A DNA stretch of 64,000 nucleotides, from NCBI GenBank assembly GCA_026713105.1, contig JAPOPC010000044.1:1-64000 (forward strand). The letters run 5' to 3'. The stretch is from Acidimicrobiaceae bacterium. Its GTDB lineage: Bacteria > Actinomycetota > Acidimicrobiia > Acidimicrobiales > Poriferisodalaceae. Below are positions 4,021 through 53,086 of the stretch, piece by piece. The first letter of the stretch is position 1; the number at the start of each line of letters is the position of its first letter. Made by a program: the position numbers and the translations under genes. Below the pieces are notes generated by a model. The model was not told where the DNA came from, ran no database searches, and saw nothing but the letters and a program-made list of their open reading frames with translations.

Positions 4021-6825
4021 ATGAAGCGGAAGAAGCGCCGCGCCCTAGCGGCAATCACTGCCGCGCTCTTCGCGGCCGCAGTGCTGGCTGCGGTGGGCGG
4101 CCCGCCGGTCAACGCTGCGAACACTTCCGGCGAAGAGCTCATCGACACCGATGACGACGGCATCGGCGACACCCGGGAGTTCGCCGGCTCGCACCGCTAC
4201 AACACCGCCGTCGCCCTCGCCGAGCGCTTCGCCGACGACCAGGACAACTTCTCCACCGTCATCATCGCCTCGGGCGAGACCCAGGTCGACGCCGTTGCTG
4301 CCGCCGGCCTCGCGGGCCATCTGCGAGCCCCCATCCTGCTCACTCGCTCTGGCCAGCTTCCCCACAACGTGGCCCGCTTCATCGAAGAGCACGGCATCGC
4401 CAAGGTGGTCATCGTGGGCGGCACCGCCGTCATCCCCACCGCCATCGCCGACGCCATCAAAGACCTGAACACCCGCCCCGACGTCGAGCGGCTGTCTGGC
4501 GCCGACCGCTACGCCACCGCAGCCGCGATCAGCGAGGCCATCGACGGCCCCATTGCGTCGTGGTGTGGCTCGAGCCAGCGGGCGGCCATCATGGTCAATG
4601 GCGGCGACGTCGGGCGTTCCGACTCGATCATCATCGGCCCGCTGGCGTACCGGCTCGGCATGCCGATCCTGCTCACCGAGCTGCGCACGCTGCCGGGCGC
4701 CACCCGCAAATTCATCACCGACAACAAGATCCAGCGCGTCGTCATTGTGGGCAGCGACGCTGCGGTGTCCGATCGTGTCCGCAACTCGCTGGTCAACGAC
4801 CTCAACGTGGTCACCGCTCGCCGCATCGCCGGCGGCACCGCCGCAGCGACCTCGGTGGCGCTCGCCCACGAGATGCTCAACAACTGCGGCACCGAGCTGG
4901 GCACCAACGCCGACATGGTGGCCTTGGTGAACCGCGACGCGTCCGCCGACGGCATCGCCGCGGCGCCCACGCTGGGCCGCGGCCTCGGCAACCGGGGGCC
5001 TGTGCCGATCCTGCTCGTGGGCAGCCGGCTGCCCTCGGAGGTCAGCGACTATCTCGCCTCCACGCCCGAGACCCGCTCGGGCCGCGACACCCACATGAGC
5101 ATCCTGGCCATCGGCGGCACGGCCGTGGTGAGCAGGACGGTCATGAACCAGGCCGTAGCGGCGGCACGCACTGCGGTGGGGCTCACGGCGAAGATCCGTG
5201 TCGACATCGACCCGCTCACCGGCGAGTACGAGACCCACACCACCGGCGGCGTCACCGGCGGGGTGTTCACGGTGACCTTCAGCGACGATGTGGCCCGCCC
5301 GCCGGCCAGCGGCATCGTGCGAGACACCGTGCTCGACCCCACGATGTACCGCATCAACGGGCGGCGAATCGCCGGAGTCACCTTCGACGGCACCACCAGC
5401 GACGAGCCGATCATGCTCGTCGACGAGATCTACATCACCGATCGCACGGTCACCATCAGGCTGTCGCACATCCTCGAGCCCGGCGACACCATCTCGGTGC
5501 TGGGCGGCGCCCGGGTGGGTGCGGGGGGCGACCTGCGCCGGCTCGAACGCACGTCGCTGACGCTGCCCAAGCTCACGCCCCAGCTCGACCGCTTCGCCCC
5601 CACCGTCGACATCTTGGCCGTGGCGGGCATGCAGACGTTCCGGGTGTTCATCACCGAGCCGAACCTGATCCACAACGAGCTGACCGGCGTGCTGTGGGAC
5701 GACTACATCCGCGTCACCGGCTTCGGCCTGCGTGACATCAGCCTCAGCCTCACCGGCACCACCCCGGTCGCAGGCAGCGCCGAGGTCACCGGCTCGCTGG
5801 GCCGCCACACGGCCACCCATGCGGTGGACGTCACCGTCAGCGAGCCGCTGGCCAAGGGCGACGCGATCGTCGTGGAGCGCAAGGCCGTGATCGACGAGCG
5901 GGGCGTCGGCAATGCGCTGCGCCGCTTGGTGGTGCCCGACCCGAAGGAGCCCGGCAAGTTCGAGATCTCCGCCGTGTTCGTCGGCAACCAGGTGAACACG
6001 ATCAACCAGGCCCAGGCGACGATCAGCACCCCCGCTCCGAGCCCGGTGGCGAAGATGCGCATCACCGCCCGCCCGACCGGCGCTGCCGCCGGGGCCAACG
6101 GCAACGACTGGGTGATCTTCGGCTACGACGACCGGCCGGGAGCGGACGCGGCCGAGAAGGCCGCAAGCACCAAAGCCTTCAACATCGTCGTGTTCGCCGA
6201 CGCGACCAACAAGGTCATCAACTACCTGATCTCCGAGAGCGCGCCCACGCGGGGCATCGGCCGGGTCGCCAACCTGCTCGACCTCGCCTCGGCGCTCAAC
6301 CGCAACTCGACCTTCCGCACGAATTTCACCGTCGACTACGTCCGAGACGACACAGGCCTGAAGACGAACACCAACGACGCCAAGGACACCGCGCTCGGCC
6401 CCACAGACACTGCGGGCGTCCCCCTGAGCGGCGGGGTGTCGGCGGTGGGTGTGCTCGTCAGGTTCAACGACACGGTGCAGAGCCTCACCGAGACCGGCGG
6501 CGTGTACGACATCCAGACCGATCTCGTGCGGCTGGGCTCGACCGGCTACGAGAGCGAGCTGAACTTCTCGGCTCCCACCGACGAGGTGTTCATCACCTAC
6601 TGGGCGTCGGACCCCCAGGCGCTGCCGCACCGAACCGCATTCCGCATCATCATGCCCGGCCGTGCGACGAACTATCACAACACCGAGGACACCACTCTGG
6701 ACTCCCTCGAAGGCACCCCCAGCGACCGTTTGTCGCTGAGCAGCTTCCGCCCCGACGCCCGCCTGAAGCCCCAAGCAAAGACCCCAGCGCAGATCACCGC
6801 ACTCGTAGGGCGCTTGTTCCCGTAG
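4021..6825 (+). CDS. Secreted CWB2 surface protein, EF-loop group (copy A)
   Basis: 934 residues. Signal peptide 1-32 (basic KRKKRR, hydrophobic core, VNA at the cleavage site). Residues 42-53 (DTDDDGIGDTRE) match the 12-residue EF-hand calcium loop. Three CWB2 repeats follow (about 55-385), each marked by a GS-x-RYNTA/GADRYATA box and VVIVGGTAVI-type strand; CWB2 modules anchor proteins non-covalently to cell-wall polymers. The rest (about 390-934) looks like tandem Ig-like beta domains, with FTVTFSDDV, ILEPGDTISV and a GANGNDWVIFGYDD segment shared with copies B and C. I chose ATG 4021 because it gives a clean signal peptide. It converges on the nuclease gene at 6830 with four bases between stops. 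Outer-surface location is inferred. Confidence 0.88.
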   Translation: MKRKKRRALAAITAALFAAAVLAAVGGPPVNAANTSGEELIDTDDDGIGDTREFAGSHRYNTAVALAERFADDQDNFSTVIIASGETQVDAVAAAGLAGHLRAPILLTRSGQLPHNVARFIEEHGIAKVVIVGGTAVIPTAIADAIKDLNTRPDVERLSGADRYATAAAISEAIDGPIASWCGSSQRAAIMVNGGDVGRSDSIIIGPLAYRLGMPILLTELRTLPGATRKFITDNKIQRVVIVGSDAAVSDRVRNSLVNDLNVVTARRIAGGTAAATSVALAHEMLNNCGTELGTNADMVALVNRDASADGIAAAPTLGRGLGNRGPVPILLVGSRLPSEVSDYLASTPETRSGRDTHMSILAIGGTAVVSRTVMNQAVAAARTAVGLTAKIRVDIDPLTGEYETHTTGGVTGGVFTVTFSDDVARPPASGIVRDTVLDPTMYRINGRRIAGVTFDGTTSDEPIMLVDEIYITDRTVTIRLSHILEPGDTISVLGGARVGAGGDLRRLERTSLTLPKLTPQLDRFAPTVDILAVAGMQTFRVFITEPNLIHNELTGVLWDDYIRVTGFGLRDISLSLTGTTPVAGSAEVTGSLGRHTATHAVDVTVSEPLAKGDAIVVERKAVIDERGVGNALRRLVVPDPKEPGKFEISAVFVGNQVNTINQAQATISTPAPSPVAKMRITARPTGAAAGANGNDWVIFGYDDRPGADAAEKAASTKAFNIVVFADATNKVINYLISESAPTRGIGRVANLLDLASALNRNSTFRTNFTVDYVRDDTGLKTNTNDAKDTALGPTDTAGVPLSGGVSAVGVLVRFNDTVQSLTETGGVYDIQTDLVRLGSTGYESELNFSAPTDEVFITYWASDPQALPHRTAFRIIMPGRATNYHNTEDTTLDSLEGTPSDRLSLSSFRPDARLKPQAKTPAQITALVGRLFP

Positions 6826-6829
6826 TAGT

Positions 6830-8392
6830 TCAGCATCGCAACACGCCGGGCAGTCGGGCGTCGAGCAGTGCGGTGTCGAGCAGCAGGGTGTCTGCCGGTC
6901 GGTGCGGGGTGTTGGCCGGCTGGTGTGGGGCGTTGAGCGCCAGTGCGTCGGCTGGCTCGTGTGGGGTGTCGGCCGGCTGGTTCTCGGGGAGGGGCGGAGC
7001 GAGCCGGTAGCGGCCGTCGCGGATGATGACCCGCCAGTTGTGGTCGTGGATGCGGTCGTGACAGAACCAGCACACCAGCACGAGGTTGTCGAGCCGGGTC
7101 TTGCCGCGACGCTTCCAATGGATGATGTGGTGGGCTTCGCATTCGTCGGGTGGTGCGCCGCAGCCGATGCATTCGCGGTCGCGGGCGATCAGGGCGCGTC
7201 GTTGTGCTGCGGTGGGCGCTCGGGCGGGCGTGGTCTCATACAGCGGCGTGAGTTTGTCGCCGAACAGCACCACGGAGAGGCCGGAATTGCAGATGAGCCG
7301 CTCGACCGTGCTGGCCGGTATGGGCCCGGCGCCGGCGATCTCGGCGATGCCGCCGGGTTCTCCGAGCAGCATGTCGAGGTCGGCACGAACGATGATCTGA
7401 GCGGCTGGCGCCCGATGGGGCGTGGCTTCCGGTGGAGCGTCGGCGACTGGTGCGGCTGCCGGTGAAGCATCGGCGGTTGGTGCGGATGCCGGCGCGGTGC
7501 CGAGGGTCGGTACAGGGGCCGTCGGTGTGTCGGTGGCCGGCGCAGTTGCCGCTTCGGGCGCCGGTGTGTCTAGCGCCGCGGGCGCAGGCGCGACTGCAGT
7601 TACGGCTTGGTCGAGGGCGTCGGCCATGCGCTGGTCGCGAGTGCGGACGGCCTCGCTGTCGGTGCGGCGAGCCCCGCCGCTGCCGGCCCCGCCGGCCTCG
7701 ACCCCGCCAGCCTCAGCCCCGCCGGCCTCCGCCCCGCCGGTTCCACTGTTGCGCGCACGTCGGCGGTCGGATTGGCGCAGCAGCTCGGCGTGGCGGCGGA
7801 GACGGTTCTGAATGCGTGCACCCATCTCGGCGTCGAACGAACCGCGCATCTGCACCGAGCCGTCCTCACCGTTCCAAAAGCGCACATGGCGGTTGCGCCG
7901 GTTGCGGCGATGCTGCGCGGCGAGCTCGTCGCTGCGCTGATGGCGGACCGTCCAGCGCTGTGCGGCCTTCGCGAACTCGTCTGCGGGGAGCGCCTTCGCC
8001 TGCTCCATGAGCTCGGCGTCGTCCTGGACTGCCTGGGGGCTGGTACTGCGTGCGGCCCGGGCCAGCCGTGCGGCGTTCGCGAGGCTGATCTCGCCCTGGG
8101 ACACCCCGTCGCGGGCTGCGGGTATCTGCGCGAGCTCCGCATCGGTGCGCACGTTGCGTGCAGCGTCGGACCGCGACACGCCGCCGAGCTGGTTCAGCAG
8201 CCCGGCCCCGCCGTCGCCGTGCTGTTCGCGTTGGGCGACCAGTGACGCTGCTTTGGTCTCGAGCAGCTCGACGCGGCTGCGCAGCTGCTTGGCCAGCCCC
8301 AGCGTTCGGCGCAGCTCGCCGGTGGGCGTTTGGTCGACGGCCCCGACCGCTGCGCTGAGGTGTTCCAGCGCCTGCTGCACCTGAGAGAACAT
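6830..8392 (-). CDS. DUF222/HNH endonuclease (13E12-type), copy 1
   Basis: 520 residues. The N-terminal two thirds are the helical DUF222 domain (for example LLNQLGGVSRSDAARNVRT, then FDAEMGARIQNRL). A Gly/Ala-rich stretch and a long Ala/Pro/Thr-rich insert lie at about 215-330. The C-terminal HNH domain has ECIGCGAPPDECEAHHII with the catalytic HH, NLVLVCWFCHDRIH, and CxxC pairs for structural zinc. HNH nucleases nick or cut DNA; the biological role of this very common actinobacterial family is not settled. It is convergent with copy A and preceded by an AT-richer start region with TATCAACCC. The low-complexity insert differs strongly from the copy at 26925. Confidence 0.85.
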   Translation of the reverse strand: MFSQVQQALEHLSAAVGAVDQTPTGELRRTLGLAKQLRSRVELLETKAASLVAQREQHGDGGAGLLNQLGGVSRSDAARNVRTDAELAQIPAARDGVSQGEISLANAARLARAARSTSPQAVQDDAELMEQAKALPADEFAKAAQRWTVRHQRSDELAAQHRRNRRNRHVRFWNGEDGSVQMRGSFDAEMGARIQNRLRRHAELLRQSDRRRARNSGTGGAEAGGAEAGGVEAGGAGSGGARRTDSEAVRTRDQRMADALDQAVTAVAPAPAALDTPAPEAATAPATDTPTAPVPTLGTAPASAPTADASPAAAPVADAPPEATPHRAPAAQIIVRADLDMLLGEPGGIAEIAGAGPIPASTVERLICNSGLSVVLFGDKLTPLYETTPARAPTAAQRRALIARDRECIGCGAPPDECEAHHIIHWKRRGKTRLDNLVLVCWFCHDRIHDHNWRVIIRDGRYRLAPPLPENQPADTPHEPADALALNAPHQPANTPHRPADTLLLDTALLDARLPGVLRC

Positions 8393-8531: not shown

Positions 8532-8927
8532 TCAGCCGATCACACCAGCAGTGTTGAGCCAGATCGGCATCGCAGCCGACAGGCCGATGCCCGCGAGCCA
8601 GTAGTGGCGAATCCGGCCTGTTCGACGGTCCTCATCACGCTGGGCAACCAGGAGATCAACTCTCGAGGTGAGCTCGACGAGCTTGACGTCAAGAGTGTCG
8701 ACTTCGGCGGTGAGGTCGTCGACGCTCTCCTTGGTGGCGAGGCCGGTGAGGTCTTCCTTGGTGGCGAGGCCGGTGAGCGCGGCCGACAGCGTGATCGACA
8801 AGTAGTCCTTGGTCACCAGATCCGACAGCGGCGCAGGCGGCAAGCACGACATCACGTACTCGGCGGTCGGCTTGTCGAGATGCTCACAGAACCAATCGTA
8901 GAGGCGAGAACGATCTTCTTCAGACAC
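8532..8927 (-). CDS. Small coiled-coil membrane protein, EYVMSCL family copy 2
   Basis: 131 residues from GTG 8927. This start is chosen because AGGGAG lies seven bases upstream and similarity to the gene at 2690 begins here. The shared N-terminus is SEEDRSRLYDWF and AEYVMSCLPPAPLSDLVTK. The middle has LTGLATKEDLTGLATKE repeats and heptads (VDTLDVKLVELTSRVDLL) that predict a coiled coil. The C-terminus has a single hydrophobic anchor (YWLAGIGLSAAMPIWL) ending in NTAGVIG. The function is unknown. A partial duplicate of its 3' end lies at 9071-9146. Confidence 0.65.
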   Translation of the reverse strand: MSEEDRSRLYDWFCEHLDKPTAEYVMSCLPPAPLSDLVTKDYLSITLSAALTGLATKEDLTGLATKESVDDLTAEVDTLDVKLVELTSRVDLLVAQRDEDRRTGRIRHYWLAGIGLSAAMPIWLNTAGVIG

Positions 8928-9070
8928 AGCGCACTCCCTGGAGGACCAGTTCCGCAGACCGTATACATGAAATTTGCGGTGTTCCAAATAAATTTCAGTA
9001 TTTGTCGCTGACGCCGGAATCAGATGTGAGTGCTCGCCGGTAGTCGCGTTCTGTGCTCATTGAAATTCGC

Positions 9071-9300: not shown

Positions 9301-12063
9301 GAATGTGCGCGCCATGAGCGGTATCAAGCCCAAGATCCGGGCATCCGTCGAAACGGCCGCCATTTTGAGGCAGCGAATCCTGCAAATCAGCTGCTCAGAG
9401 GGGCAAAAAAGCTGATCGACACGAACGGTGACGGGGTTCCCGACAGCCGTGAGTTCGCCGGTTCCCACCGCTACAACACTGCGGTAGCGCTCGCAGAGCG
9501 CTTCGCTGCTGATGAGGGCAGCGTTTCCACGGTGATTCTCGCCTCGGGCGAGTCCCAGGTCGATGCGGTGACCGCGTCGGGTCTGGCCGGCAACTTGAAC
9601 GCACCAGTGATGCTGACGCGTTCGAGCCGCCTGCCCCACAACGTGGCCCGGTTCATCGACGAGCAGAACATCACCGACGTGGTGATCGTTGGCGGCACCG
9701 CTGCGGTGTCCGACGACGTCGTCACGGCGCTTGAGGCCTTGGGCTCACGCCCGAACGTCGAGCGTGTGTCTGGTGCTGACCGGTACGCGACCGCTGCTGC
9801 GATCGGCGACCGCCTCGGCGGCCCGAACCCGACGTGGTGCGGATCGAACCAGTCCGCTGCGATCATGGTGAACGGCGGCGACGCCGGCCGCGCTGATGCG
9901 ATCATCTCGGGCCCGCTGGCATTCCGCCTGGGCCTGCCGGTGCTGCTCACCGCTGCCGACGAGGTGCCTGAGGCCACTGCGGCGTTCCTGACCGACAACA
10001 AGGTCGAGCGTGTCGTCGTGGTCGGCGGCATGTCCGCCGTGTCGGCTGACGTGGTTGACGCGATGGTCGAGGACATCGGCGTGGTGAACGTGCACCGCAT
10101 CTCTGGCGGTTCTGCCGCTGCGACCTCTGTGATGGTCGCCAACGAGATGCTCGGCAACTGCGCCGACGTGCTGCAGACCAACCGGGACCTGGTCGCCTTG
10201 GTGAACCGTGACGCCACAGCGGACGGCATTGCTGCTGCTCCGGTGCTGGGCCGCGGCCTGGGCGCTGCTGGTTCGGTGCCGATCCTGCTGGTCGACGACG
10301 AGCTGTCTTCAGCGGTCAGCGACTACCTGGCCTCCACGGCTGAGGTTCGCGCTGGCAACAAGACGCACCAGAGAATCGTGGCGATCGGCGGCACTGCTGT
10401 GGTCAGCAACTCGGTGATGGCTGACGCCGTCGCTGCTGCGAAGACCTCCAGCGCGCTGACTGCGACGATCACGCCGCACAAGTACACCGCGGCCGATCCG
10501 CCTGCGGCTGATTCGGGCAAGAGCATCGGCGACTACAAGACCACGTTCGCTGTGACCTTCAGCGACGATGTCAAGGAGCCCAGCGACGCCGACGCAAGCG
10601 GCGCTGTCAACGACAGCGCAGCTGACCGTGCGGGCACGGTGCTCGATCCGACGATGTACCGGCTCAACGGCCGTCGTCTCCAGGCATATTTGGAGACTGA
10701 TCCCGACGAGACGGGAACGGTGCAGGACCTGATCTTCACCGCGAATCGAACGGTGACCATCGCGCTCAGCCACCACTTGGAGGCCGGCGACACGATCACC
10801 GTGGATAACTCGGCCAACGAGGCTGCGGGCGGCAAGCTCGGTGCCAACAGCGACCTGCGCAATCTGGAAGCAGCGTCGCTGACCCTTCCCGCGGTCACGG
10901 TCGCTAGCGATCGCAACGCACCGGTCGTGGAAGTCGTCGCGGTGTCTGGCCAAGGGACGTTCGATATTCTCGTCACCGAGCCGAACATCTTGCACTCGGA
11001 GATCTTCCAAGGCGCTGCCCAGGGCAGCAATCTCGAAGATTTCCTGAGCGTCGTGCCTCATGGCCGTGACGCTGCCAGAAAGACGGCCGGCATCACCGTG
11101 GCCGCAGCGGCAGCACCCACGCTCACCGATGCGGGACAGAAGACGAATGGCCGGGCAGATGTCCACGCGCGGTATCGCATCACGGCGACTCCTGCTCTTC
11201 AGCACGGCGACGTGATTGTCATCGAGCGCAAGGCGGTTCTGGACAGGGGCGGCCGCGGCAGCCCGCTGATCCGGTCCACCGTTGCTCGGGTCAAGACCGG
11301 TACCCCGGGACCGGCTGGTTCTGGCGACCTTGAGGTCCAGAGCGTGTCCATCGGCAACTACGTGCATGGCGCGCAGGCCAGTGCGGACATCGCCACTGAC
11401 ATGGACGTGCACGCCAAGGCGACTGGCGTCGCATCGGGTGCACGAGGCAACGGCTGGACGATCTTCGGCTACGACGACCGTGGCACGAATGTCGGGAATG
11501 CGTTCACGATCGATGTGGCTGTCGATATCGCCAACCAGCGGATCAGCTACACCATCGACAATGCATTGCCGCTGAGGCCGTTCAGGGCTCCGACGATCGG
11601 CGACCTGGCTGGCGCGTTGGTCAGCAACGATGACTTCAGCGCGAACTTCAGGCTGACCTACGAGGGCGGTACACGTCCGACGGCAGGCAAGGGAACGGCA
11701 CTGACCGCCACCGCTGCCACAGGCGTCGACTTCACCGGAGGCATGTCGTCGGTTGGCGTGATCGTGAGGTTCAATGCTCCGATCGAAACGGCGACGACCG
11801 ACCTCGCGGATCTTGCAGGCGACATCGCTGCAAGGTTCACAGGTACACCGGTGATCAGCATTGTGAATCCGGACAACGAGGTGCACATCTCGTACACCTC
11901 CGCCAGCATGGTTGAGTTGCCGGCACGGGCAGGCTTCCGAGTCATCGCTTCCGGTGTTGCCACCGGCTACGGCGACGACACGGTGACGCCGGCTGTGACT
12001 GGGCAGACCAACGTCAGGGAGATTCTGAACAGTCTCCGCCCGGATGCGAGCATCAAGCCGTAG
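9301..12063 (+). pseudogene. CWB2 surface-protein gene, EF-loop group (copy B), 5' truncated
   Basis: From 9412 the frame encodes an intact counterpart of copies A and C. It has an EF-loop (DTNGDGVPDSRE), three CWB2 repeats with GADRYATAAAIGDRL and VVIVGGTAAVS boxes, Ig-like domains with GARGNGWTIFGYDD, and the family ending SLRPDASIKP. Upstream, the frame is open only to 9301 and contains no ATG, GTG or TTG before GTG 9532; the signal peptide region is absent. Starting at 9532 would give a protein lacking both secretion signal and EF-loop. No internal stop is present over 2.6 kb. It may be a recent pseudogene, a silent donor copy, or use an unusual start. A 39-base run (9441-9479) is identical to copy C (12432-12470). 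Confidence 0.75.
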
Positions 12064-12134
12064 GGATCTGATCCCACGGTCAGGCAATATCGCCTGATCA
12101 ACGGCTGAGCCGGCCGCAAGGCTGGCAAGACCAA

Positions 12135-12168
12135 GAAGGACCCCGGGGTTTCGGCCCCGGGGTCCTTC
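12135..12168 (+). terminator. Strong hairpin terminator after copy B
   Basis: A perfect 14-base-pair inverted repeat, GAAGGACCCCGGGG / CCCCGGGGTCCTTC, encloses a six-base loop (TTTCGG). No T-tract follows, as is common for actinobacterial I-shaped terminators. It lies 72 bases after the copy B stop codon and 106 bases before copy C, so it separates transcription of the two. Confidence 0.8.
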
Positions 12169-12246
12169 GCGTCGTTGGCCTTGGGTCACGGCACCCTGTG
12201 ATAACGACTATTACCCTGAGGTTCTGACGAGGCCACTGAACCGTGT

Positions 12247-15759: not shown

Positions 15760-15900
15760 TGCGTTGGTCGTCCTGAAACCACGCGTGCGCTTTGTTGTAC
15801 TGCGAGCCGACGGGCGGTCATGTCTTAGTGAAAACGCTGCACGCCCTTCGAGGTGTTTCGACCGGGCGTGGGCGCGCTGGTCGCAATTAGCGTCATTGGG

Positions 15901-19288: not shown

Positions 19289-19306
19289 CGGGGTAGCGTG
19301 TGCGCT

Positions 19307-26901: not shown

Positions 26902-26924
26902 ACCGGTTGTTTAGCGTGCGTGGC

Positions 26925-33418: not shown

Positions 33419-33613
33419 GCGGGCTGCGGGGGCCTGGCTGCGCCGACTGGCTGCCCCAATCTGGCTGACCCAGCGGGCAGCGTTTCCCCAGCGGGCAGCA
33501 GTACAAGCCGTAGCGTTCGTGGCGAGCTGCTCGAGGTGGCGTCCCCGCCCCGGGCCGCAGCCCCGCGAGCCGTAGTGTCTGCGGCGAGCCTTCCGAGGAG
33601 TCGAACCGAACGC

Positions 33614-34250: not shown

Positions 34251-34357
34251 GTTGAGGTGGCTGGCCGGCGCCCGCTGCACGTTGTGCTGACGAGCACTCA
34301 TGCGGCGGCTGCATCGGCCCGGGAAGCGGAATTGAGCGCGGCAGTAGGTTGCCGGAC

Positions 34358-37300: not shown

Positions 37301-37857
37301 CCAGCCAGCACGACCCCCGCCTGGCTCACGACTGGACCTATCCCGACGGCGTCGTCACGACATCGCACCGCCGCCACCTGCGCATCGAGGAAATGCTGGC
37401 GTGGAGCCGCTGGCAGCTCGGCTGGCTCGCCGACGATCAGGTCCACTGCGTGAGCGAAGACGACCTGTCCGGCGGCATGTCGGTCACGCTGTCACCGTTG
37501 GCCCAGCCCGGCGACGGCATCGCCATGGTCGCCGTGCCGCTCAACGCCCACCAGGTCCTCGTCGCAGAAAGCCGCCGCAAGCTCGGCTATGACGCCGGGC
37601 GCTTCTTCGAGGCCGACGACACCGGCGCCACCACCACCTTCCCCCGGCTCATCACCGAAGGCGTGCTGGTGTACACCGTCGACACCTTCATCGGCTCAGG
37701 CGAGCTGCCCGTCAAGGTGGCCGGCGACAGCGGCAACGGCCAGGTTGACGAATTTCCCCTCCTCGAGCCCGGCGAGGGGGTGTCGCTGCGTGGCTACACC
37801 ATCACCCTCACGGCCGACGATGGCGATACCCACACAGTGCTCATTGAGAAGCAATAA
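34358..37857 (+). CDS. CWB2 / PD40 propeller / M6-like metalloprotease (copy H), frameshifted
   Basis: Counterpart of the protein at 15901 in all domains. Signal peptide (LAALVLSVAVGFGSVLVV), Ser/Asp-rich spacer, three CWB2 repeats (GGADRYATSLLIAEAV, VVLMGGTAALSETV), a 58-residue acidic linker (about 408-465, mostly Asp/Glu/Gly/Ser), PD40 blades (AWSPQGDRIAYVRG, AWSPDGSQIAYYSS), then the protease. The reading frame breaks at a C6 run (36705-36710). Upstream is frame 2 of the window (same phase as 34358); downstream, from PPTGTVRVAVLFMDF to the stop at 37857, is one base off. Alignment to the 15901 gene shows one C missing. Without the shift, translation ends at 37279 after about 190 unrelated residues. 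The zinc motif HELTHNLGLPDLY is intact downstream. It may be an assembly error, a pseudogene or phase variation. Confidence 0.8.
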
Positions 37858-43656: not shown

Positions 43657-46322
43657 TGACGTGGCGACGATCGGTGTGGCTGCCGACTCTGCTGGCTGCG
43701 CTGTTGGCGTCCGGTCTGCTGGCGCTGCCGCACGATGCGGCGCACGCAGTGGTCGACGATGCCGAGTTCACCCGCCTGTCAGGTCCGACCCGGTACTCGA
43801 CGTCGGTGCAGATAGCCGAGGCCTACATCGACGTCGTCGACGAGCTGGCCGACACGCCCGACGTGGACACGGTGATCATGGGCTCGGGCCTCGACGAGCA
43901 CGCCGGCTGGGTGACACCGGTGCCGATGCTGTCGAGGCTGCACCGCGCACCGCTGGTGTTCACCCGCCCTGACGACGTGCCGGTGCCGGTGGCGCAGTTC
44001 CTCCAGCGGCGCGCGATCCGCAGGGTGATCCTGCTCGGGGGCACACAGGTGATCTCGGCCGCTGTCGAGAGCAAGCTCGCCGACCTGGGCGTGCAGGTCG
44101 TCGAGCGTCTGGGCAGCGACGACATCCACCTGCACTCGGTTGCCGTCGCGGCGTCGTTCAACAACCCCGCCGGAAACGCTGCCCGCAGCGTCCGTACCGC
44201 GCTGCTTGTCACCAGCAACGCCTTCGCCGATGCCCTGGCGGCCGGCCCGATGGCCTACCAGGGTGACTATCCGATCCTGCTCACAGACCAAGACCGGCTG
44301 CACCCCGCCGTGCTCGACTACCTCGTGGCGAGCGACATCGAGCGTCTCATCATCGTGGGCGGAACCGCAGCGGTGGGCACGGCCGTACAGCAGGCGCTGT
44401 CAGGCTTCGACTTCAAGATCTCCCGGATAGCCGGGATCGACCGCTATGGCACCGCCGTCAAGCTGGCAGAGGCCCAAATGGACCGTCGTGACCCGCTGTG
44501 GCCCTGCTTCGACGGCGCCGAGTTGGGCTTGGCGTACGGCGGGTTGTCCCCAGATGCGATCGCGAGCGGGCCGCTGCTGGGCGAGCTGTGCGCGCCGTTG
44601 CTGCTCACCGGTTCGGACACGTTGCCTCGCTCGGTGTCGTCGTTCCTGCGCTCGTATACGCGGGCGACTGGCGACGCCGACCACGACCCCTCGGTGACGG
44701 TGTTCGGCGGCACAGCGGTCGTGCCCACCGATGTCGTCAACCAGATCTTCGAGCGGCGCGCCACGCTGGTGCCGATCGGCGGCCGCATCAGCGTCGTGCT
44801 CGACCCGCGTACTGAGGAGGCTGAGCAGTTCACTGTCGCCTTCGAGGACGACATCGACGCGACGAAGGCCGCCCGTGCGCTCGACTCCGACGTGAGGATG
44901 TTCAGCGTCAATGCCGATCCCGTACGCGCATCATCGTCGGGCCTGTGTGATGGTGTGTCGGCTGATCCCGACGAGTGGTGCGGAGACGTGCGCGTCCTCG
45001 GCGACAGCGTGACCGTGACGCTCGACCCAGGCCACAGGGTCCTCGAGGCCGGGGACGTCATCACTGTGACTGGCGGCCAGCGCATCGGTTCCGACAACAG
45101 CCCCCGCCCGTTGGCCCGCTTCTCCTACACCATCCCCGATCCCGACGAGTCCGTGGACCGCGACGCCCCCCAGGTGGAGATCATTGCGCCGGCAGGACAG
45201 ATGCAGTTTGCTGTGCTGGTCATCGAGGAGAATCCGTTCAGCCCCCTGCTCCCCGGTGCCGCCGCACTGGCGAAGCGCATCACCGTGACCGGCGCCGATG
45301 GCGCGATCAAGAGCGTCGCCGCGACCTCGACCGCGACCTCCGGTCTGGCCGGCAGGGCCGCTGGCACGCGCTCGTCCCACCAGCGATATCTGTTCAGCCT
45401 TGCCGACGGCATGCTCGAACCAGGTGATGCCATCGCCGTGCCGCGGGGCGTATTCGTGGACGAGGCGGGATTGCGGAACCGCGCGCAGCACAGTGTGGTG
45501 GCAGAGCACAGCGTCGAATTGCGGATTGATTCGGTCACCATCGGCGACGTCGACACCGAGAGCCCAGCCAGCGTGACCCTCAATGCAAACACCCAGCTCG
45601 ATGTCGAGCCAGGCAACGCGCGGATCGGCTCGCTGACGATCACTGCGCGCAGGGACGGCTTCGCGTCGGGCAGCGGCGGCAATCAGTGGCGGGTCTACGG
45701 CGTCGGTTTGCCTCCGGGCGACGACGAGGAGAATCAAGGCGGGGACAGCAACGAGGACATCGATCCCGAGATCGGTGTCTCGCTGAATCCCACAACGCGA
45801 TTGATCCGCTATGACATCTTGCGAGGCGAGCCGACGTTCGCAGATCTGGCCGAAGCGCTGTGGGCCGATGTCACCTTCGCCGCCAACTTCACGGTGACCG
45901 TCGACGGCGCGATCGCAGACGGCGAATCCATCGGCGGCACGATCACCGCCGGTGTGCAATTCGGCGGGGCTGGCACCGCAATCGGTGTGCGGGTGCGCTT
46001 CAGCGATCCGGTCAAGTCGCTGCTCGGTGGTGCAACTCCTCGTGAACCCATCGTTGCCGGGGTCATGAAGTGTTCAGCGCTGCCGCTGCTCGCCGACATC
46101 GCACCGAACATCTACGCGTCGAGCAACGATTGCACGCTGGGCTTCGCCGCACCGGACAATCTCGTCTACTTCAAGCTCAATTCGAGGAGTGCGACGCGCT
46201 TTCCCGGACGGGGCGATTCGGTGTTCATCAACGGCAACGCTGCGAGCGACTACACAGACCGCCTGAGCGTGACGCAGGGCTGGCTGACCATCCGGTACGA
46301 CCCTGACGTGGTGGCGAACTGA
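43656..46322 (+). CDS. Secreted CWB2 surface protein (copy K)
   Basis: 888 residues, starting at ATG 43656 inside the stop of copy J. Signal peptide 1-30 (LPTLLAALLASGLLALP, AHA). CWB2 repeats at about 37-370 (SGPTRYSTSVQIAEAY, VILLGGTQVISAAV, VTVFGGTAVVP). The middle repeat is degenerate: GSDDIHLHSVAVAASF replaces the usual RYxTA box. The C-terminal half is Ig-like (VLEAGDVITVTGGQ; GSGGNQWRVYGV) and ends with IRYDPDVVAN. Second gene of the J-K-L operon; one base separates its stop from copy L. Confidence 0.87.
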   Translation: MTWRRSVWLPTLLAALLASGLLALPHDAAHAVVDDAEFTRLSGPTRYSTSVQIAEAYIDVVDELADTPDVDTVIMGSGLDEHAGWVTPVPMLSRLHRAPLVFTRPDDVPVPVAQFLQRRAIRRVILLGGTQVISAAVESKLADLGVQVVERLGSDDIHLHSVAVAASFNNPAGNAARSVRTALLVTSNAFADALAAGPMAYQGDYPILLTDQDRLHPAVLDYLVASDIERLIIVGGTAAVGTAVQQALSGFDFKISRIAGIDRYGTAVKLAEAQMDRRDPLWPCFDGAELGLAYGGLSPDAIASGPLLGELCAPLLLTGSDTLPRSVSSFLRSYTRATGDADHDPSVTVFGGTAVVPTDVVNQIFERRATLVPIGGRISVVLDPRTEEAEQFTVAFEDDIDATKAARALDSDVRMFSVNADPVRASSSGLCDGVSADPDEWCGDVRVLGDSVTVTLDPGHRVLEAGDVITVTGGQRIGSDNSPRPLARFSYTIPDPDESVDRDAPQVEIIAPAGQMQFAVLVIEENPFSPLLPGAAALAKRITVTGADGAIKSVAATSTATSGLAGRAAGTRSSHQRYLFSLADGMLEPGDAIAVPRGVFVDEAGLRNRAQHSVVAEHSVELRIDSVTIGDVDTESPASVTLNANTQLDVEPGNARIGSLTITARRDGFASGSGGNQWRVYGVGLPPGDDEENQGGDSNEDIDPEIGVSLNPTTRLIRYDILRGEPTFADLAEALWADVTFAANFTVTVDGAIADGESIGGTITAGVQFGGAGTAIGVRVRFSDPVKSLLGGATPREPIVAGVMKCSALPLLADIAPNIYASSNDCTLGFAAPDNLVYFKLNSRSATRFPGRGDSVFINGNAASDYTDRLSVTQGWLTIRYDPDVVAN

Positions 46323-46323: not shown

Positions 46324-48552
46324 ATGGGGCCTGGAATGACGCCGGCCGCGCTTCGGCCCCGTCGAGCCCTGACCGCAGCGCTGCTGTGTGCCGGGCTGGT
46401 GGCGGCGTCGCTGCCATTCGCGCCGGGCGTCGCGCTGGCGGCAGCCGACGATGTCGACATCGAGCGGCTCGCGGGCCCGACCCGCTACGCGACCGCAGTC
46501 GAGATCGCCGAACGCTACGCGGACGAGTTGGACACCGGGATCAGTACGGCCATCGTTGTGTCTGGTGACGACGCCCATGCGGCCTGTGCGCTTCCGGCGG
46601 CAGCAGTCGCGGCTGAACGGCGGGCTCCGATCCTGCTCACGCCTGCTGGCAAGCTGCCGGCGGCCGCGGAGAGGTTCATCGACGATCACGGCATCGGCCA
46701 CGCAGTCATCTTGGGCGGCACGGCAGCGGTATCCACGGCGGTCGCCGACCGGCTGCAGCGGTTGACCGGCCGAGCACCGCTTCGCCTCGGCGGCGCCGAC
46801 TGCGCTGAGGTGGCGTTGGCGGCGGCTCGCCATCTCGACTCTGCCGGCGTGGCCGCCGGGCGCGGGCGCACCGCGCTGCTGGCGACCGACGTCTCGCCGG
46901 CCGATGGTTTGGCTGTTGGTCCGCTTGCGTACCGGGGTCGCCTCCCGTTGCTGCTCGCTCACGACGGGGAGATCGAGGCCCCCGTCATCGACTATCTCGC
47001 CGGCCATGCCGACCACGTCATCATCCTGGGCGGCACCGCAGCGATCAGCGAGGCTGCGGCGCGTCAGATCCGAGAGCGAGGCCTCAGCGCCGAGCGGTGG
47101 CACGGTGTCGACCGCTACGCCACCGCGGCCCGCATCGCCGGCGAGCTGCTCGGCGACGGATCACCGGTCCGGTGTTTCGACGGCGACGGCGTAGGTCTCG
47201 CGACTGGGTTCGCAGCTGCTGACGCTGTCGCCAGCGCTCCGCTGCTCGGCGAGCGTTGCGATCCGCTGCTGCTCACCGAACCTTCAGCGCTTCCGACGAC
47301 GACGGAGACAGCGTTGGGCGCAGACTCCATCGCGGGCGACGCAACCGGGGTGCTGCGGCTGACCATCTTCGGCGGCAACGCCGCGGTCGGGCCGCCAATC
47401 GAGCGGTGGGCGAAGCTGGCCGCCACCAATGCCGAAGTCGTCAGCGGATCGCCCATCGCGGCACTCATCAACGCCGTCGAAGGTGCGTGCCATTGGACGG
47501 TGACGTTCAGCGCGCCGGTCCGCACTGTTGACGTCGAGGACGTCGGCAGCTACACGTTCGGCCAGAAACCGTTGCCTGCTCATCTGGTTGAAATCGACGG
47601 CGGGGGCGCCAGCGCGACCACCCAGGCGATCGTGCTGCTTCAGGGCGCCAGCGCGTACAGCAGCGCGGAGGTGCCGACCGGGTGCGTCATGCCGGTCGCC
47701 GTGCGCGATCGGCTCAGCGTGAATGAGGGCGCCATCCGTGCCGCCGCCGGAAGCCGCACCGTCGGCGCGGCCGAGCTGATCGTGCAGGCCGACACCGACC
47801 GACCCCGGATCACGGTGTTCGCGCCGCCGGGCGGCCACACCGTGTGGGTGCGTTCGAACGAGCCGGTTACTGCTGGCCGTGTGAACGTCACCCTGACCCG
47901 TGGCCGTGCTCGCAAGACCCAGACCGCAACGACGAAGCGGGGCGACACAGGCTTCAGCGTCACTTTCAGCTTCCCCGAACATGACAGCTACGTCTCGACC
48001 GAGCTGCCATTCACCGAGCCTCCGTGGTTGCATGCCGCCGACAAGATCACCGTCGCCGGCGGGAAGCTGCGTGACTGGGCCGGCAACGCAAACTTGACAG
48101 CCACGCACACGGTGCGAACCGATACCACGCCGCCTCGAGTGAGCGGCATCGTCGCCTCGGAGCCTGTCGCCGATTCCGACGGCACATTCGCCGTCGACAT
48201 CGTCGTGCGCTGGGACGAGCCGGTGCGCGGTTGCGGCCTTGGACCGACCGGCGACGAGATCGACCTGTCCAAGATCCGGCTCGATGTCGACAGCGATGGC
48301 TTCGCCGACTTCTCCCTCGACGGGCACGGCGCCTCCGCCGCTGGCGTCGCGTTCACTGCCGCGCCCGGTGGCAGCGAATGGACCGTGGCCGGCAGCGCGG
48401 CCTGCGATCACTCGTGGCAGGAATCAGACGGGACTCTCGTTGCCCGCCTGGCGTCGTCGACGCTCGCTGCGCTGCCGAGCAGCAGCTCCACGTTGATCGT
48501 GGGCGCCGGGGCCGCTCACGACTTCGCCGGCAACCCCGCGGTGGCGCACTAG
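46324..48552 (+). CDS. Secreted CWB2 surface protein (copy L)
   Basis: 742 residues. Signal peptide 1-39 (ALTAALLCAGLVAASLPF, ALAAA). CWB2 repeats at about 45-375 (AGPTRYATAVEIAERY, AVILGGTAAVSTAV, LTIFGGNAAVG). The second repeat is degenerate (GGADCAEVALAAARHL). A Cys domain (CHWTVTFSAPV, VPTGC) is followed by Ig-like modules (DWAGNAN, HDFAGNP) and DVDSDGFADFSLD, a calcium-loop-like segment. Same plan as copies E and I but shorter. Last gene of the J-K-L operon; the 158-base gap after it holds the sigma-gene regulatory region. Confidence 0.88.
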   Translation: MGPGMTPAALRPRRALTAALLCAGLVAASLPFAPGVALAAADDVDIERLAGPTRYATAVEIAERYADELDTGISTAIVVSGDDAHAACALPAAAVAAERRAPILLTPAGKLPAAAERFIDDHGIGHAVILGGTAAVSTAVADRLQRLTGRAPLRLGGADCAEVALAAARHLDSAGVAAGRGRTALLATDVSPADGLAVGPLAYRGRLPLLLAHDGEIEAPVIDYLAGHADHVIILGGTAAISEAAARQIRERGLSAERWHGVDRYATAARIAGELLGDGSPVRCFDGDGVGLATGFAAADAVASAPLLGERCDPLLLTEPSALPTTTETALGADSIAGDATGVLRLTIFGGNAAVGPPIERWAKLAATNAEVVSGSPIAALINAVEGACHWTVTFSAPVRTVDVEDVGSYTFGQKPLPAHLVEIDGGGASATTQAIVLLQGASAYSSAEVPTGCVMPVAVRDRLSVNEGAIRAAAGSRTVGAAELIVQADTDRPRITVFAPPGGHTVWVRSNEPVTAGRVNVTLTRGRARKTQTATTKRGDTGFSVTFSFPEHDSYVSTELPFTEPPWLHAADKITVAGGKLRDWAGNANLTATHTVRTDTTPPRVSGIVASEPVADSDGTFAVDIVVRWDEPVRGCGLGPTGDEIDLSKIRLDVDSDGFADFSLDGHGASAAGVAFTAAPGGSEWTVAGSAACDHSWQESDGTLVARLASSTLAALPSSSSTLIVGAGAAHDFAGNPAVAH

Positions 48553-48700: not shown

Positions 48701-48710
48701 CTGTGAAGCC

Positions 48711-50300
48711 ATGGCACTGCGACTTGAAGATCGAGATCTGGTTCTCGCCTACCAGTCCGGCGACGACGAAGCGTTCGCTGAACTGGTGCGTGAATACCGG
48801 CCGCAACTGCTCGGTCACGCGCGCCGCCGTTTGGGATGCCCTGAGGCGGCCGAAGATGCCGTGCAGGAAGCGCTGGTGCGCGCCCTTCGGGCCATGCCAC
48901 GGTTCAACGGCAACTACCGGGTGGGCCCGTGGCTGCACCGGATCTTGTCCAATGTGTGCAGCGACGAGGGCAACCGCCAGCGTCGTGCGACCGAGAAGGC
49001 CGAGCGCTGGGCGTCGAACGACCGCGCCCTGAACCCGCCGCCTGACACCGAGGCCGATCTGGGTCTCGACATCGACGACACCGAGCTGCTCGAGGCCGTT
49101 GACGGCCTGTCTGAGCAGTACCGCGAGGCGCTGATGCTGCGCTTCGTCGACGAGCTCTCCTATGAGGAGGTTGCGCAGGCCTCTGGGGTGTCTGAGGACA
49201 ATGCGCGGGCGCGAGTCTCCCGAGCCCGCAATGCGGTGCGTGCGGCGCTGAAGCTGGCTGCGGTGGCGCCGGTTGCGCTGATCGGGCTGCTGCGGCGTGG
49301 CGAGCGTGCGGCGTCCGCGCTGTCTGGTTCTACGCCGGGGGGCGGCAAGGCTGCCGTGCATTCGGCGATGCCGCTGCTGGCCGAGACGGGTCCGCTGGCT
49401 TCTCGTGCTGCTGCGGCTGCGGCCAATTCGGCCGCTACTGGTGTGCCGATCGTGGCCAAGGCGGCTGTCAGTCTTGGGCTGGCGACCGCAGTCATCACGC
49501 CGACGGTCGACTCGCCGGTGCATCGGGCGGTTGATCGGGTGCTGCCCGATTCGGTCATGGAGGTGCTGACGCCGTTGGCCGTCGAGGTGCCTGCGCCTGA
49601 CGCGCCTGTTGTGGTGCCCCAAGCGCCTGCCGCGGTTGCCGTCGAAGTCGCCGCTACTGCCACGGCGATCTCCGAGGCTCCCGTAGTCGAGGCGGTGAGC
49701 GAGCAATCCGAGGCGGTGCCTGCGGCCCCGAGCACCGAGACGGTTGACGAGGCGCCGGCTGCGGTTGCTGCTGCGGCGCCGGCTGTGGTTGCTGCCGAGG
49801 ACACGACCTCTGAGGAGCCGGCGGCCGCGGTCGTCGCTTCTGAGCCGGTCGTGACGATGACGACGTCTGGGTCGATTGACGGTGGGCAGCTCATCTTCAC
49901 CGCTGCGGGCGCCGACCGCTTTGACGTGTCGGGTGCGCTGACCATGACGGTCACCACCACCACCACGACGGTGGACGGCGATGAGACGACTGAGGTGGTC
50001 ACTACGGCGACCGAGTCGGTGAGCGTGGTGGCGCCCAGCAGTGCTTCGCTGTCTGCGGCTGATCCGTCGGATCCCGAGGCGCAGCAGCGATTCAGCGCTT
50101 TGTTGGTGCTCGACCAGTCTGTCGAGATGCGCTTGGCGGCCCGCGGCGCCATGGTCGACGGTTCGCTGCCCCTCGAAGGCCTGTTTACGGCGACCCAGAG
50201 CGACGCGTTGCCGCTGGCCGAGCGAGGCTCTATGTCTGGCACGCTGATGTTTGCCGATGACGGCACTTTGCAGTCGCTCGCCCTTACGCTCAGTCCGTGA
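48711..50300 (+). CDS. ECF sigma factor with membrane segment and long C-terminal extension
   Basis: 529 residues, against about 180-200 for ordinary ECF sigma factors. Sigma region 2 spans about 8-85 (DDEAFAELVREYRPQLLGHA; VGPWLHRILSNVCSDEGNRQ) and region 4 about 118-175 (LSEQYREALMLRFVDELSYE; VARARVSRAR-like helix). Hydrophobic segments follow at about 182-195 and 245-265 (VAKAAVSLGLATAVITP). An Ala/Val/Pro/Glu-rich linker (270-380) leads to a Thr/Ser-rich beta-like domain (380-529). The layout suggests a membrane-tethered sigma factor with an outer sensing domain, replacing a separate anti-sigma factor. Its stop overlaps the next CWB2 gene (GTGA), so that surface protein is its likely partner or target. 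Confidence 0.85.
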   Translation: MALRLEDRDLVLAYQSGDDEAFAELVREYRPQLLGHARRRLGCPEAAEDAVQEALVRALRAMPRFNGNYRVGPWLHRILSNVCSDEGNRQRRATEKAERWASNDRALNPPPDTEADLGLDIDDTELLEAVDGLSEQYREALMLRFVDELSYEEVAQASGVSEDNARARVSRARNAVRAALKLAAVAPVALIGLLRRGERAASALSGSTPGGGKAAVHSAMPLLAETGPLASRAAAAAANSAATGVPIVAKAAVSLGLATAVITPTVDSPVHRAVDRVLPDSVMEVLTPLAVEVPAPDAPVVVPQAPAAVAVEVAATATAISEAPVVEAVSEQSEAVPAAPSTETVDEAPAAVAAAAPAVVAAEDTTSEEPAAAVVASEPVVTMTTSGSIDGGQLIFTAAGADRFDVSGALTMTVTTTTTTVDGDETTEVVTTATESVSVVAPSSASLSAADPSDPEAQQRFSALLVLDQSVEMRLAARGAMVDGSLPLEGLFTATQSDALPLAERGSMSGTLMFADDGTLQSLALTLSP

Positions 50301-53086
50301 TTTACCGGCGTCGGGGCCTCCCGGCGCAGACTCGGCGCAGCAGGCTCCGTGGTGTGTCCGCGGTGCTGTCTCGGCGCAGCAGGTTCCGCGGCGCGACCGC
50401 GGCGCTGCTGCTGTTCGCCGGTGTGCTAGCGGGCACGGCAGCCGGCGCAGCTGAACCGACCGCGGTGGCTGCCGGTCCGGTGGTGCCGACGCAGTGGCCG
50501 AGTTCGTTCTTGGCGGCGCCGCAGATCGAGGGCTGGCCGAATGCGCTGCGCATCTCGGGTGCCGACCGTTACCAGACGTCGCTGGCGGCATCGCTGATGC
50601 TTCGTGGCCAGGGCGGGTTCCCGTTCGAGACGCCTGATCCCTCGTCGGGCGGCGTCCGCAGTCTGAGCCAGGCCGATGGCTGGTGGGGGCTCGGCGTGTG
50701 TCCGAAGGCGGTCATCATCGTGGCGGGCGATTCGCCGGCTGATGCGTTGGCTGCCGCGTCGCTGTCGGATTCGACTGGCCGATCCAGCGAGCCCTACTTG
50801 CGGCGGTCCTCGGCGGCCGATCCGCTGTTCGACCCGCCCGGCGGTTTCGCCCGGGTCGACACGTTTGCAGCGCCCATCCTGCTGACCCCGTCTGCTCGGG
50901 AGGGTGCCACAGCGCTTGCGGTGCCGGTGCGGCTTGCGGCCCAAGACCTGCGTTCGGGCGGTTGCAACACAGCTCGGCAGGCGATCATCGTCGGCGGGAC
51001 GGCGGCGGTCGCCCCAGAGATCGAATCTGAGCTGGTGTCGATCGGCTACACCGAGGTGTTCCGTGTGGGGGGCGCGAACCGGTTCGGCACTGCTGCCGCG
51101 GTGGCGACGGCGCTGGGCACGGCGCCGGTTCCTGCGGGTGCGACCGGGTGTGCCGATCCGTCGGCTGCCGACGGCACCGCCACGGTGGCTTTCTGGGCCA
51201 ATTCGGTAGTGGAGTGGCGGGAGAATCCCGAGGAATGCCGGCTGCTGGGCCGCACGGTGGTGCTGACCGATGGGGTCGACGGCATCGATGCGATCGCGGC
51301 GGGCTGGTGGACGAGTTTCTGGCAGGTGCCGGTGCTGCTGCACAACGGCACCGACGAGCTGCCCACCGAGACGGCGACGGCGCTAAGCCTGCTTGATGTC
51401 GAGAACATTGTGGTGCTGGGCGGGCTGGAGCGTCTGTCGCAGCCGGCGGTGCGGTCGGCGGCTCGGCTGGCCCGGGCGAACACGATCCGGGTGGCGGGTG
51501 CCGACCGGTATGGCACCAGCGTTGCGATGGCCGAGCATTTTGGCGGGTGGTGGCCGTCGGGTTCGGGTGACGACTTCGCCTCGTCGATGCTGTGCTTGGT
51601 GGCGTCGTCGGATAGCGGCCGCCAGCAGCGGGGCTGGGCAGATGCTCTGAGCGCCGGGCCGTGGTGCGGGGCGGCGACGGCGTCGTCGCAGAACGCTCCG
51701 GCCCGCATGCTGCCGCCCGTGGAGGTGTCGCAGCCGGCGGTGGTGCCGCTGCCTGAGGCTGTGCAGGCTGGCGCGTCGCGGACCGGTACGTCGCAGTCGG
51801 GCGCGTCGCAGCCTGACGGGCCACAGCGAGACGCGCGACCGACCCGCTCTGCCGTGCCGATGCTGCTGGTGCCGGCGGGCGCCGACCGCTTGCCCGACTC
51901 GGTGGCGGCGTTCCTGCTCGATGCGTTCGCTGCGCCAGAGGCTTGCGAGAGCCAGTCCGAGCCGGTCGCCTACGCGAAGGCGCTGGCCGGCGGCGTGTGC
52001 CCGGCGCCGGGGTTCGCCGTGGCGTTCGGCGGGGCGGGCGTGATCACCCCCAGCCTGCTCAGCGAGGTGTCCGCCGCGCTGTCGGGCAACCAGACATCGC
52101 AACAGACCCAGCCCGTGCTCGTGGGCGCCCAGACGCCCGACCCGTTCTCGCCCTACGGCGTGCAGGCAACCCCAGGCGTCGACTTCGGCGTCGGTGCGTT
52201 CGCGACGACCATGTCGATGGCGCCGATCTTCCGCAGCGACGCAGCCGGGGTGCAGGTGTGCATGCCGCGTGGCACCTACGCCGGTGCTCGCTGGATCGTG
52301 GCTGAGGCGTCTGGCACCAGCGCCGTCGTCGAGGTCCCCAAGCAGGGCTGGTACCAGCCCGACAGCCGTTCCGCCGGCCGGGGAGTACCGGCATGCATCG
52401 GGCTCGCTGAGTCGCTGGGGGCGCCCCTGCTGGCCCGCGGCGTGGGACCCAGCGGCGCGGCGACCGACTCGCTGATGCTGATCGCCGACACCGGCCGTCG
52501 CTTCTCGCTGACCGGGGCGATCGATGCCAACGAGCCGTCCACCGTCGGCACCCCCAGCGAGCTCGACCCGCCCGAGGGCGGGCACACTCGCTGGCTGTTC
52601 CAGACCGGCGCCGTGACCGACCGGGCGATGCTCGGCGCACGGGGCGAGTCGATCGTGGACACGCGCATCGTGCTGCACCTGTACCGGGGCGCGGCGCCGC
52701 CGGGGGCGTCAGGGCCGCCGGGTCAGTCGGCGCCCGACACGTTCACGGCGACGTGGCACATTCGTACTGAGCGCGGCACCCTCATCGGGTCGGCTCAGGG
52801 CGAGGCAGTGTTGAATGCGGGTGTGTGGCAGCTTCGAGGCGCCACCGTGTTGACCGCGGGCACGTGGGCCTCGCTGGTCTACGGGCCGCCCGTGCCACCC
52901 GTCAGCGACGAGGGGCCGCCCCCGGTGCGCGAAGCAGGCACCCCGTTCGACCCGCTGCGAGCCGGCACGTCCGACGGCTACGGCGCCGGTGGCTTCACCG
53001 CAACATTGACGGTGAACTCCCCCGGCACCACCGACGACAAGCTCTCCTGGCAGCCAGAAGCCTTCATCAACAAGCCGTTGTCCTAA
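50297..53086 (+). CDS. Secreted divergent CWB2 surface protein coupled to sigma factor (copy M)
   Basis: 929 residues from GTG 50297, overlapping the sigma gene by four bases. An Arg-rich n-region (1-33) precedes ATAALLLFAGVLAGTAAGAA. CWB2-type boxes are recognisable but widely spaced (ISGADRYQTSLAAS, AIIVGGTAAVAPEI, VGGANRFGTAAAVAT, IVVLGGLERLS, VAGADRYGTSVAMAEHF), with long inserts between them. A low-complexity stretch near residue 490 has repeated GTSQSGASQPDGPQ-type units. The C-terminal 350 residues are beta-rich without DLAGN motifs and unassigned. Possibly a surface component whose state is sensed by the sigma factor. Confidence 0.85.
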   Translation: MIYRRRGLPAQTRRSRLRGVSAVLSRRSRFRGATAALLLFAGVLAGTAAGAAEPTAVAAGPVVPTQWPSSFLAAPQIEGWPNALRISGADRYQTSLAASLMLRGQGGFPFETPDPSSGGVRSLSQADGWWGLGVCPKAVIIVAGDSPADALAAASLSDSTGRSSEPYLRRSSAADPLFDPPGGFARVDTFAAPILLTPSAREGATALAVPVRLAAQDLRSGGCNTARQAIIVGGTAAVAPEIESELVSIGYTEVFRVGGANRFGTAAAVATALGTAPVPAGATGCADPSAADGTATVAFWANSVVEWRENPEECRLLGRTVVLTDGVDGIDAIAAGWWTSFWQVPVLLHNGTDELPTETATALSLLDVENIVVLGGLERLSQPAVRSAARLARANTIRVAGADRYGTSVAMAEHFGGWWPSGSGDDFASSMLCLVASSDSGRQQRGWADALSAGPWCGAATASSQNAPARMLPPVEVSQPAVVPLPEAVQAGASRTGTSQSGASQPDGPQRDARPTRSAVPMLLVPAGADRLPDSVAAFLLDAFAAPEACESQSEPVAYAKALAGGVCPAPGFAVAFGGAGVITPSLLSEVSAALSGNQTSQQTQPVLVGAQTPDPFSPYGVQATPGVDFGVGAFATTMSMAPIFRSDAAGVQVCMPRGTYAGARWIVAEASGTSAVVEVPKQGWYQPDSRSAGRGVPACIGLAESLGAPLLARGVGPSGAATDSLMLIADTGRRFSLTGAIDANEPSTVGTPSELDPPEGGHTRWLFQTGAVTDRAMLGARGESIVDTRIVLHLYRGAAPPGASGPPGQSAPDTFTATWHIRTERGTLIGSAQGEAVLNAGVWQLRGATVLTAGTWASLVYGPPVPPVSDEGPPPVREAGTPFDPLRAGTSDGYGAGGFTATLTVNSPGTTDDKLSWQPEAFINKPLS

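Follow-up and report, generated by a model that had tools for sequence, protein, structure and literature searches.

The window analysed here, a stretch of 64,000 nucleotides from an Acidimicrobiaceae genome whose draft assembly totals 3.96 Mb on 117 contigs, carries a large group of genes for proteins with CWB2 repeats. A profile search with PF04122 detected 39 such repeats in thirteen plus-strand open frames between positions 4021 and 53086, exactly three in each protein, in agreement with the thirteen genes and about 39 repeats proposed in the initial annotation. All thirteen proteins score over the curated cut-off (E-values from 6e-46 to 5e-24), and each repeat passes it alone, except for one that passes only jointly with its neighbours. 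The whole genome contains 95 repeats in about 36 frames, as counted by hand from the profile search. Since thirteen of these frames lie within 49 kb of 3.96 Mb, their clustering is not due to chance.

We designated the genes g1 to g13 in order of position. Genes g1 (4021-6825; PF04122 E-value 2.5e-37) and g3 (12298-15039; 1.1e-36) both encode a predicted signal peptide, an EF-type loop, the three repeats and an Ig-like C-terminus; the start codon of g3 is uncertain, a GTG being present upstream at 12274. Between them lies g2 (9412-12063; 4.3e-35), which has a variable C-terminus and is described separately below. Ig-like C-termini are likewise encoded by g5 (21039-23672; 1.3e-43), g6 (23691-25469; 6.8e-44), where this part is short, g9 (37932-40625; 6.2e-46), g10 (40885-43656; 6e-41), g11 (43656-46322; 2.3e-36) and g12 (46324-48552; 1.7e-36). 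In g4 (15853-19191), a PD40/TolB-type propeller, absent from the initial annotation, lies ahead of an M6-like metalloprotease domain with the motif HELVH. That domain had been predicted, and the prediction is borne out in part: TIGR03296 matches at 4.7e-14, which is under its curated cut-off, and there is no Pfam match. Gene g8 (34349-37857) has the layout of g4 and is frameshifted. Its first frame ends at 37279, the reading frame shifts once, close to a run of C residues around 36,700 (36690-36760), and the protease half is then read in another frame as far as about 37,857. Either a mistake in the assembly or slipped-strand variation could account for the shift. Gene g7 (31199-33418) encodes the trypsin/DegP-like protease expected from the earlier reading (Trypsin_2, 9e-25). 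The last gene, g13 (50297-53086; 4.9e-24), is divergent and overlaps by 4 bp the gene of a sigma factor (48711-50300, plus strand), whose assignment to the ECF family is supported; it is the sigma-coupled form described earlier. This factor has a long C-terminal extension, including a hydrophobic stretch, which may sense the envelope. The outward parts of the proteins vary, in line with the initial annotation. Most are Ig-like chains, whereas g4 and g8 combine a PD40 propeller with an M6-like protease and g7 has a trypsin-like protease.

The predicted structures place the anchor in a known family. The modelled anchor of g3 superposes on the CWB2 region of Clostridioides difficile SlpA (7acy_B) with a Z-score of 36.7 and an rmsd of 2.1 A over 299 residues, and the g9 model falls in the same family (Cwp6/Cwp8/SlpA). 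Few sequences stand behind the models, and their C-terminal halves, including that of g3, are of low confidence. The C-terminal domains gave no specific fold, only generic Ig/FN3-like matches; a weak resemblance of the C-terminal part to SbsC (Z about 8) is inside the common range. A hydrophobic N-terminal segment was found in 12 of the 13 genes, signal peptides being called from hydropathy and not by a signal-peptide predictor, and gene starts by inspection. The signal peptide earlier ascribed to all thirteen thus fails for g2, where both start codon and hydrophobic segment are missing, and is predicted for the other twelve. The CWB2 anchor of C. difficile attaches to the polymer PSII and needs three repeats to do so (PMC4973711). 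By analogy, the proteins of the window would be secreted and bound to a cell-wall polymer through non-covalent contacts. No anionic-polymer gene cluster was seen in the window. Three repeats are also the rule in the clusters of the genus (70 of 73 CWB2 frames), and two of the three exceptions are truncated at contig ends.

Several other genes are interspersed among those for CWB2 proteins. A NagX/HGSNAT-like membrane acyltransferase (28740-29978, minus strand), correctly recognised before, matches NagX at 2.4e-23, under its cut-off, and HGSNAT at 6.8e-5. It adjoins the gene of a lipoprotein (30034-31044, minus strand) that had been called PIG-L-like; the lipobox and a PHPNDE motif are present, there is no PIG-L profile match, and the likeness is by motif only. 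This pair is conserved in the clusters of relatives G005 and G010, NagX being 76-77% identical. The L,D-transpeptidase gene (25624-26757; YkuD, 1.4e-11) is present as described and has lectin-like repeats related to putidacin-type lectin bacteriocins. It has no match in any other cluster examined and is therefore not evidently part of the system. As a conserved component it was rejected. A phosphoribosyltransferase-like gene (33536-34201, plus strand; PF00156, 2.4e-10) is retained at the locus in six relatives with 79-89% identity. The locus is also broken up by two HNH endonuclease genes whose linkers are long and variable, at 6830-8392 (minus strand) and 26907-28499 (plus strand), the latter with a 71% identical homolog within the G010 locus. 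HipA-type genes lie inside the locus (19300-20922, with a 78% homolog near the G005 locus) and at its edge (54225-55872, adjoining an HTH gene). Finally, a small minus-strand gene without Pfam match, whose product (VSEEDRSRLYAW...EYVMSCL...) has a hydrophobic C-terminus, occurs ahead of g1 (2690-3037) and of g2 (8532-8987); it recurs beside CWB2 genes in G003, G004 and G005 and many times in G006.

We examined the distribution of the repeats among related bacteria. All ten other genomes of the genus that were searched contain 20-71 CWB2 repeats, and other genera of the same family 0-3. In a class-wide sample, PF04122 matched in 23 of 395 genomes, some of which have clusters of their own. The single-contig genome G065, from another family of the class, carries a further CWB2 cluster that spans at least 19 kb (C1:1161925-1180966). 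Beyond g13, the window continues with genes for two SDRs, a nitroreductase, Fpg, ALAD and an aquaporin-type MIP (53219-61310). In five relatives the SDRs, nitroreductase and ALAD are about 87-95% identical and Fpg 70-81%, and this conserved SDR-to-MIP flank marks the fixed chromosomal position of the locus. The CWB2 locus is a genus trait at this position.

Gene order inside the locus is also preserved. Homologs of the ECF sigma factor, 64-83% identical, adjoin CWB2 genes in seven relatives, and the factor is conserved together with g5-g13 in two. The order common to G005 and G010 is g13, ECF, g12, g11, g10, g9, M6-type gene, PIG-L-like/NagX pair, g6 and g5; the window has the same genes, but the positions of the acyltransferase pair and of the M6-type genes differ somewhat. 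CWB2 orthologs in these two genomes are 56-83% identical, far under the identity of the flank. Among them, g5 has orthologs of 82% (G005) and 77% (G010) identity, those of g13 reach 82-83%, and g1 is a stable ortholog whose G005 counterpart is 83% identical. In the best explanation, g4-g13, the sigma factor and g1, and probably g3 as well, belong to a stable set that is passed on vertically. The G005 genome (also listed as G041) further contains a CWB2 repeat (C1:373329-373607) in an open frame of 9243 codons, possibly a giant surface protein. The initial proposal of a dedicated surface-protein locus comparable to slpA/cwp of C. difficile is thus backed by profile, fold and conserved synteny: the CWB2 profile is found in all thirteen proteins, and relatives keep conserved neighbours. 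An S-layer-like coat built from these proteins, as initially suggested, is putative.

Genes g1-g3 form a subfamily at one end of the locus, and its middle member is of special interest. The open frame around g2 extends from 9304 to 12063, with no ATG, GTG or TTG upstream of repeat 1 and no hydrophobic signal segment. Its coding part of 2.65 kb starts at a 17-bp sequence, CTGATCGACACGAACGG (9412-9428, plus strand), which codes for the EF-type loop before repeat 1 and occurs only once in the window. Headless copies starting at the same boundary were found twice in G005 and at one junction in G010, the sequence upstream of it being unlike between copies (unrelated or partly related). Ahead of g2, a short stretch resembles the C-terminal part of a g1-type gene. 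On contig C109 of this genome, the remnant of a g4-type gene is fused in frame to the boundary region at a TTGAC microhomology. The missing leader region suggests that g2 and the two G005 copies lack a promoter as well; a sigma-70 promoter scan around g2, uninformative for this lineage, found none.

The opposite end of g2 is equally well defined. A 3' arm (12020-12173, plus strand) comprises the final codons of g2, the stop codon and a hairpin terminator with a 14-bp stem, ending in CCTTCGCGTC. Homology among g2-type copies stops sharply at CCTTCGCGTC, and the sequence beyond differs. In this genome the arm is carried by g2 and by contigs C116 (98% identical) and C23 (92%).

Do these copies exchange sequence? 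Exact tracts of 141 to 476 bp occur inside much less similar genes in four relatives and, outside the window, in this genome. The longest, of 476 bp in two G010 genes and of 282-283 bp in two G004 genes, lie inside anchor regions that are about 90% identical. In 5000 shuffles of the aligned columns the longest run was 134, so that none was as long as these tracts. Non-cassette paralogs had no comparable tract after overlapping frames were discounted; identical tracts of 179, 149 and 125 bp in control genes turned out to be overlapping frames of neighbouring genes and were rejected as repeats. In the recombining pairs, synonymous divergence was markedly lower in the anchor than in the C-terminus (0.18 versus 0.46, p = 6e-9; 0.23 versus 0.50, p = 9e-13), whereas in most one-to-one orthologs the two were nearly equal. 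The anchor was also lower, to a lesser degree, in the control paralogs g5 and g9 and in orthologs of g3, g5 and, weakly, g11, so taken by itself this measure lacks specificity. The arms of the signal-peptide copy in G005 share no more than 75-91% identity with those of the headless copies there, and no recent exchange is therefore visible in that genome. Concerted evolution across the whole g1-g3 subfamily was rejected for G005, because g2 of the window resembles its G005 ortholog more than the copies within G005 resemble one another. We likewise rejected a recent duplication or a near-identical inversion switch inside the window, as no long DNA repeat above 80% identity exists among its CWB2 genes.

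In our best reading, the locus encodes cell-wall surface proteins and combines a stable core with an end of recombining, silent cassettes. The three-repeat N-terminal anchor would hold secreted proteins on a cell-wall polymer and display their outward domains. Within the g2 subfamily, the conserved 5' arm (the anchor) and the conserved 3' arm (last codons plus terminator) would be the sites of homologous exchange, which would set different C-terminal domains behind a copy that has a promoter and a signal peptide, with headless copies such as g2 serving as donors. We assign a probability of about 0.6 to such a CWB2-anchored display set, in which the core is stable, the g2 subfamily recombines and headless copies act as donors.

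The most serious alternative is ordinary tandem expansion, where headless copies are decaying pseudogenes, exact tracts result from incidental ectopic gene conversion and nothing is switched. The frameshift in g8, the IS110/ISL3 transposase genes on cassette contigs, the g1-type C-terminal-like stretch upstream of g2 and the sporadic CWB2 clusters elsewhere in the class all fit such a history. Decay is harder to reconcile with headless copies that retain an open frame of about 2.6 kb, share one precise boundary and both arms, and co-occur with an integrase. Moreover, the two headless copies of G005 are under purifying selection (anchor dN/dS 0.09, C-terminal dN/dS 0.41, at 0.4-0.6 synonymous differences per site) and hence are, or recently were, expressed. 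Donors passing through an expression site should show such selection; the alternative account is that the leader was lost recently. Altogether, we regard simple expansion and decay as unlikely.

The integrase just mentioned is a P4-type tyrosine recombinase (Phage_integrase plus Arm-DNA-bind_3). It lies beside cassettes in G005, in G010 (81% identical) and on contig C116 of this genome (83%), always as a single copy convergent with the cassette; the gap between integrase and arm measures 13 bp in G010 and 0.4-2.3 kb in the other two genomes. Of the eleven genomes, these three and no others have 3' arm matches with E-values below 1e-40; in G003, a homolog of 44% identity adjoins a family member. 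The window itself, with its one headless copy, contains no integrase. The enzyme may move cassettes or be a passenger. Its convergent position 13 bp from the arm in G010, the direct-orientation pair of arms around integrase and complete gene on G010 contig C12 and the sharp end of homology would also suit a small integrative element having g2-type genes as cargo and the 3' terminator arm as attachment site, the integrase moving or stacking whole cassettes in place of a swap of halves by homologous recombination. Against it, an identical att core could not be defined, arms are also found at a distance from the integrase (as in g2 of the window) and the longest exact tract is located in the middle of a gene, not at its end; we consider this arrangement rather improbable.

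All genomes compared are draft short-read MAG contigs, in which breaks are expected at any repeat of k-mer length. In G010 one boundary 55-mer ends three contigs, which carry, respectively, a promoter with signal peptide (C31), an upstream region lacking the signal peptide (C24) and the body of a gene (C25). In this genome, C108 (with signal peptide) and C109 (without) end in an identical 141 bp, and the gene bodies on C23 and C116 likewise have their first 141 bp in common; G009 and G001 have the same kind of shared broken ends within repeat 2. Because 55 and 141 bp are assembler k-mer sizes, these ends alone prove only exact identity between copies. They would nevertheless allow one expression site with alternative bodies in G010 and in this genome. 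It is very improbable that the junctions are merely artefacts of MAG assembly or strain mixture, as the exact 141 or 55 bp at several contig ends might suggest, for comparable boundaries turn up again in genomes that were assembled independently, the headless copies of G005 are interior to a 296-kb contig and the 476-bp tract, far above k, lies inside contigs.

Returning to the display set with recombining cassettes, G005 offers a possible geometry for switching. There, the signal-peptide copy and a headless gene are arranged head to head, with 17-bp exact inverted boundaries 481 bp apart, and the segment between them contains the leader and the signal peptide. This would be the geometry of an invertible promoter, and the 0.5-kb segment recalls the inverted repeats around the promoter segment in the sap system of Campylobacter fetus. 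A more far-reaching version of the model would be programmed surface variation in Acidimicrobiia, where the outward half of a coat protein is replaced from armed headless cassettes, with a dedicated tyrosine integrase assisting, beside a stable sigma-linked CWB2 set. We hold this version only tentatively and on balance lean against it. If donors do feed an expression site, the benefit may be escape from phages, grazers or host defences.

Known systems resemble the locus in different respects. With slpA/cwp of C. difficile it shares the triple CWB2 anchor, variable other domains including proteases and clustered genes; it belongs to another phylum, one of its subfamilies has headless copies, and no evidence for a cleaved pair of the SlpA type was found in the window locus. 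The nearest precedent is CwpV of C. difficile, a CWB2 protein switched by RecV through inversion of a 195-bp segment at a single gene (PMC2784873). Both cases involve a CWB2 protein, and a change of its expression by DNA rearrangement, with a tyrosine recombinase implicated, would be common to them as well. Here, in contrast, several bodies share arms, the integrase belongs to the P4 type and carries an arm-binding domain, and any inversion is putative. The sap genes of C. fetus (PMC4943207) also combine a conserved N-terminal anchor with a family of silent divergent homologs, but their anchor is an LPS-binding domain and their lineage unrelated. Promoterless donor copies with upstream and downstream homology blocks are known from vmp of relapsing-fever Borrelia and pilS of Neisseria (PMC4534519), where the protein families differ and donors are more numerous than the putative ones described here. 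Features of silent cassettes are present in our case, namely open-frame copies without a start and with shared arms (g2 and the two G005 copies) and traces of exchange between copies (tracts of 476, 283 and 141 bp). The cassette end resembles sap, pilS and vmp in layout; with its switching putative, it is not classed as one of them.

Anchoring by CWB2 has been studied mainly in Clostridia, and the literature searched, with partial coverage, contained no paper linking Acidimicrobiia with CWB2. Here, an uncultured actinobacterial lineage possesses a large genus-specific repertoire of 20-95 repeats per genome. Should expression be switched at the cassette end, this would be a surface-variation system in a group for which none was found in that literature. 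Its defined boundaries and recombinase would then provide a testable handle on how the coat varies against phages, grazers and hosts.
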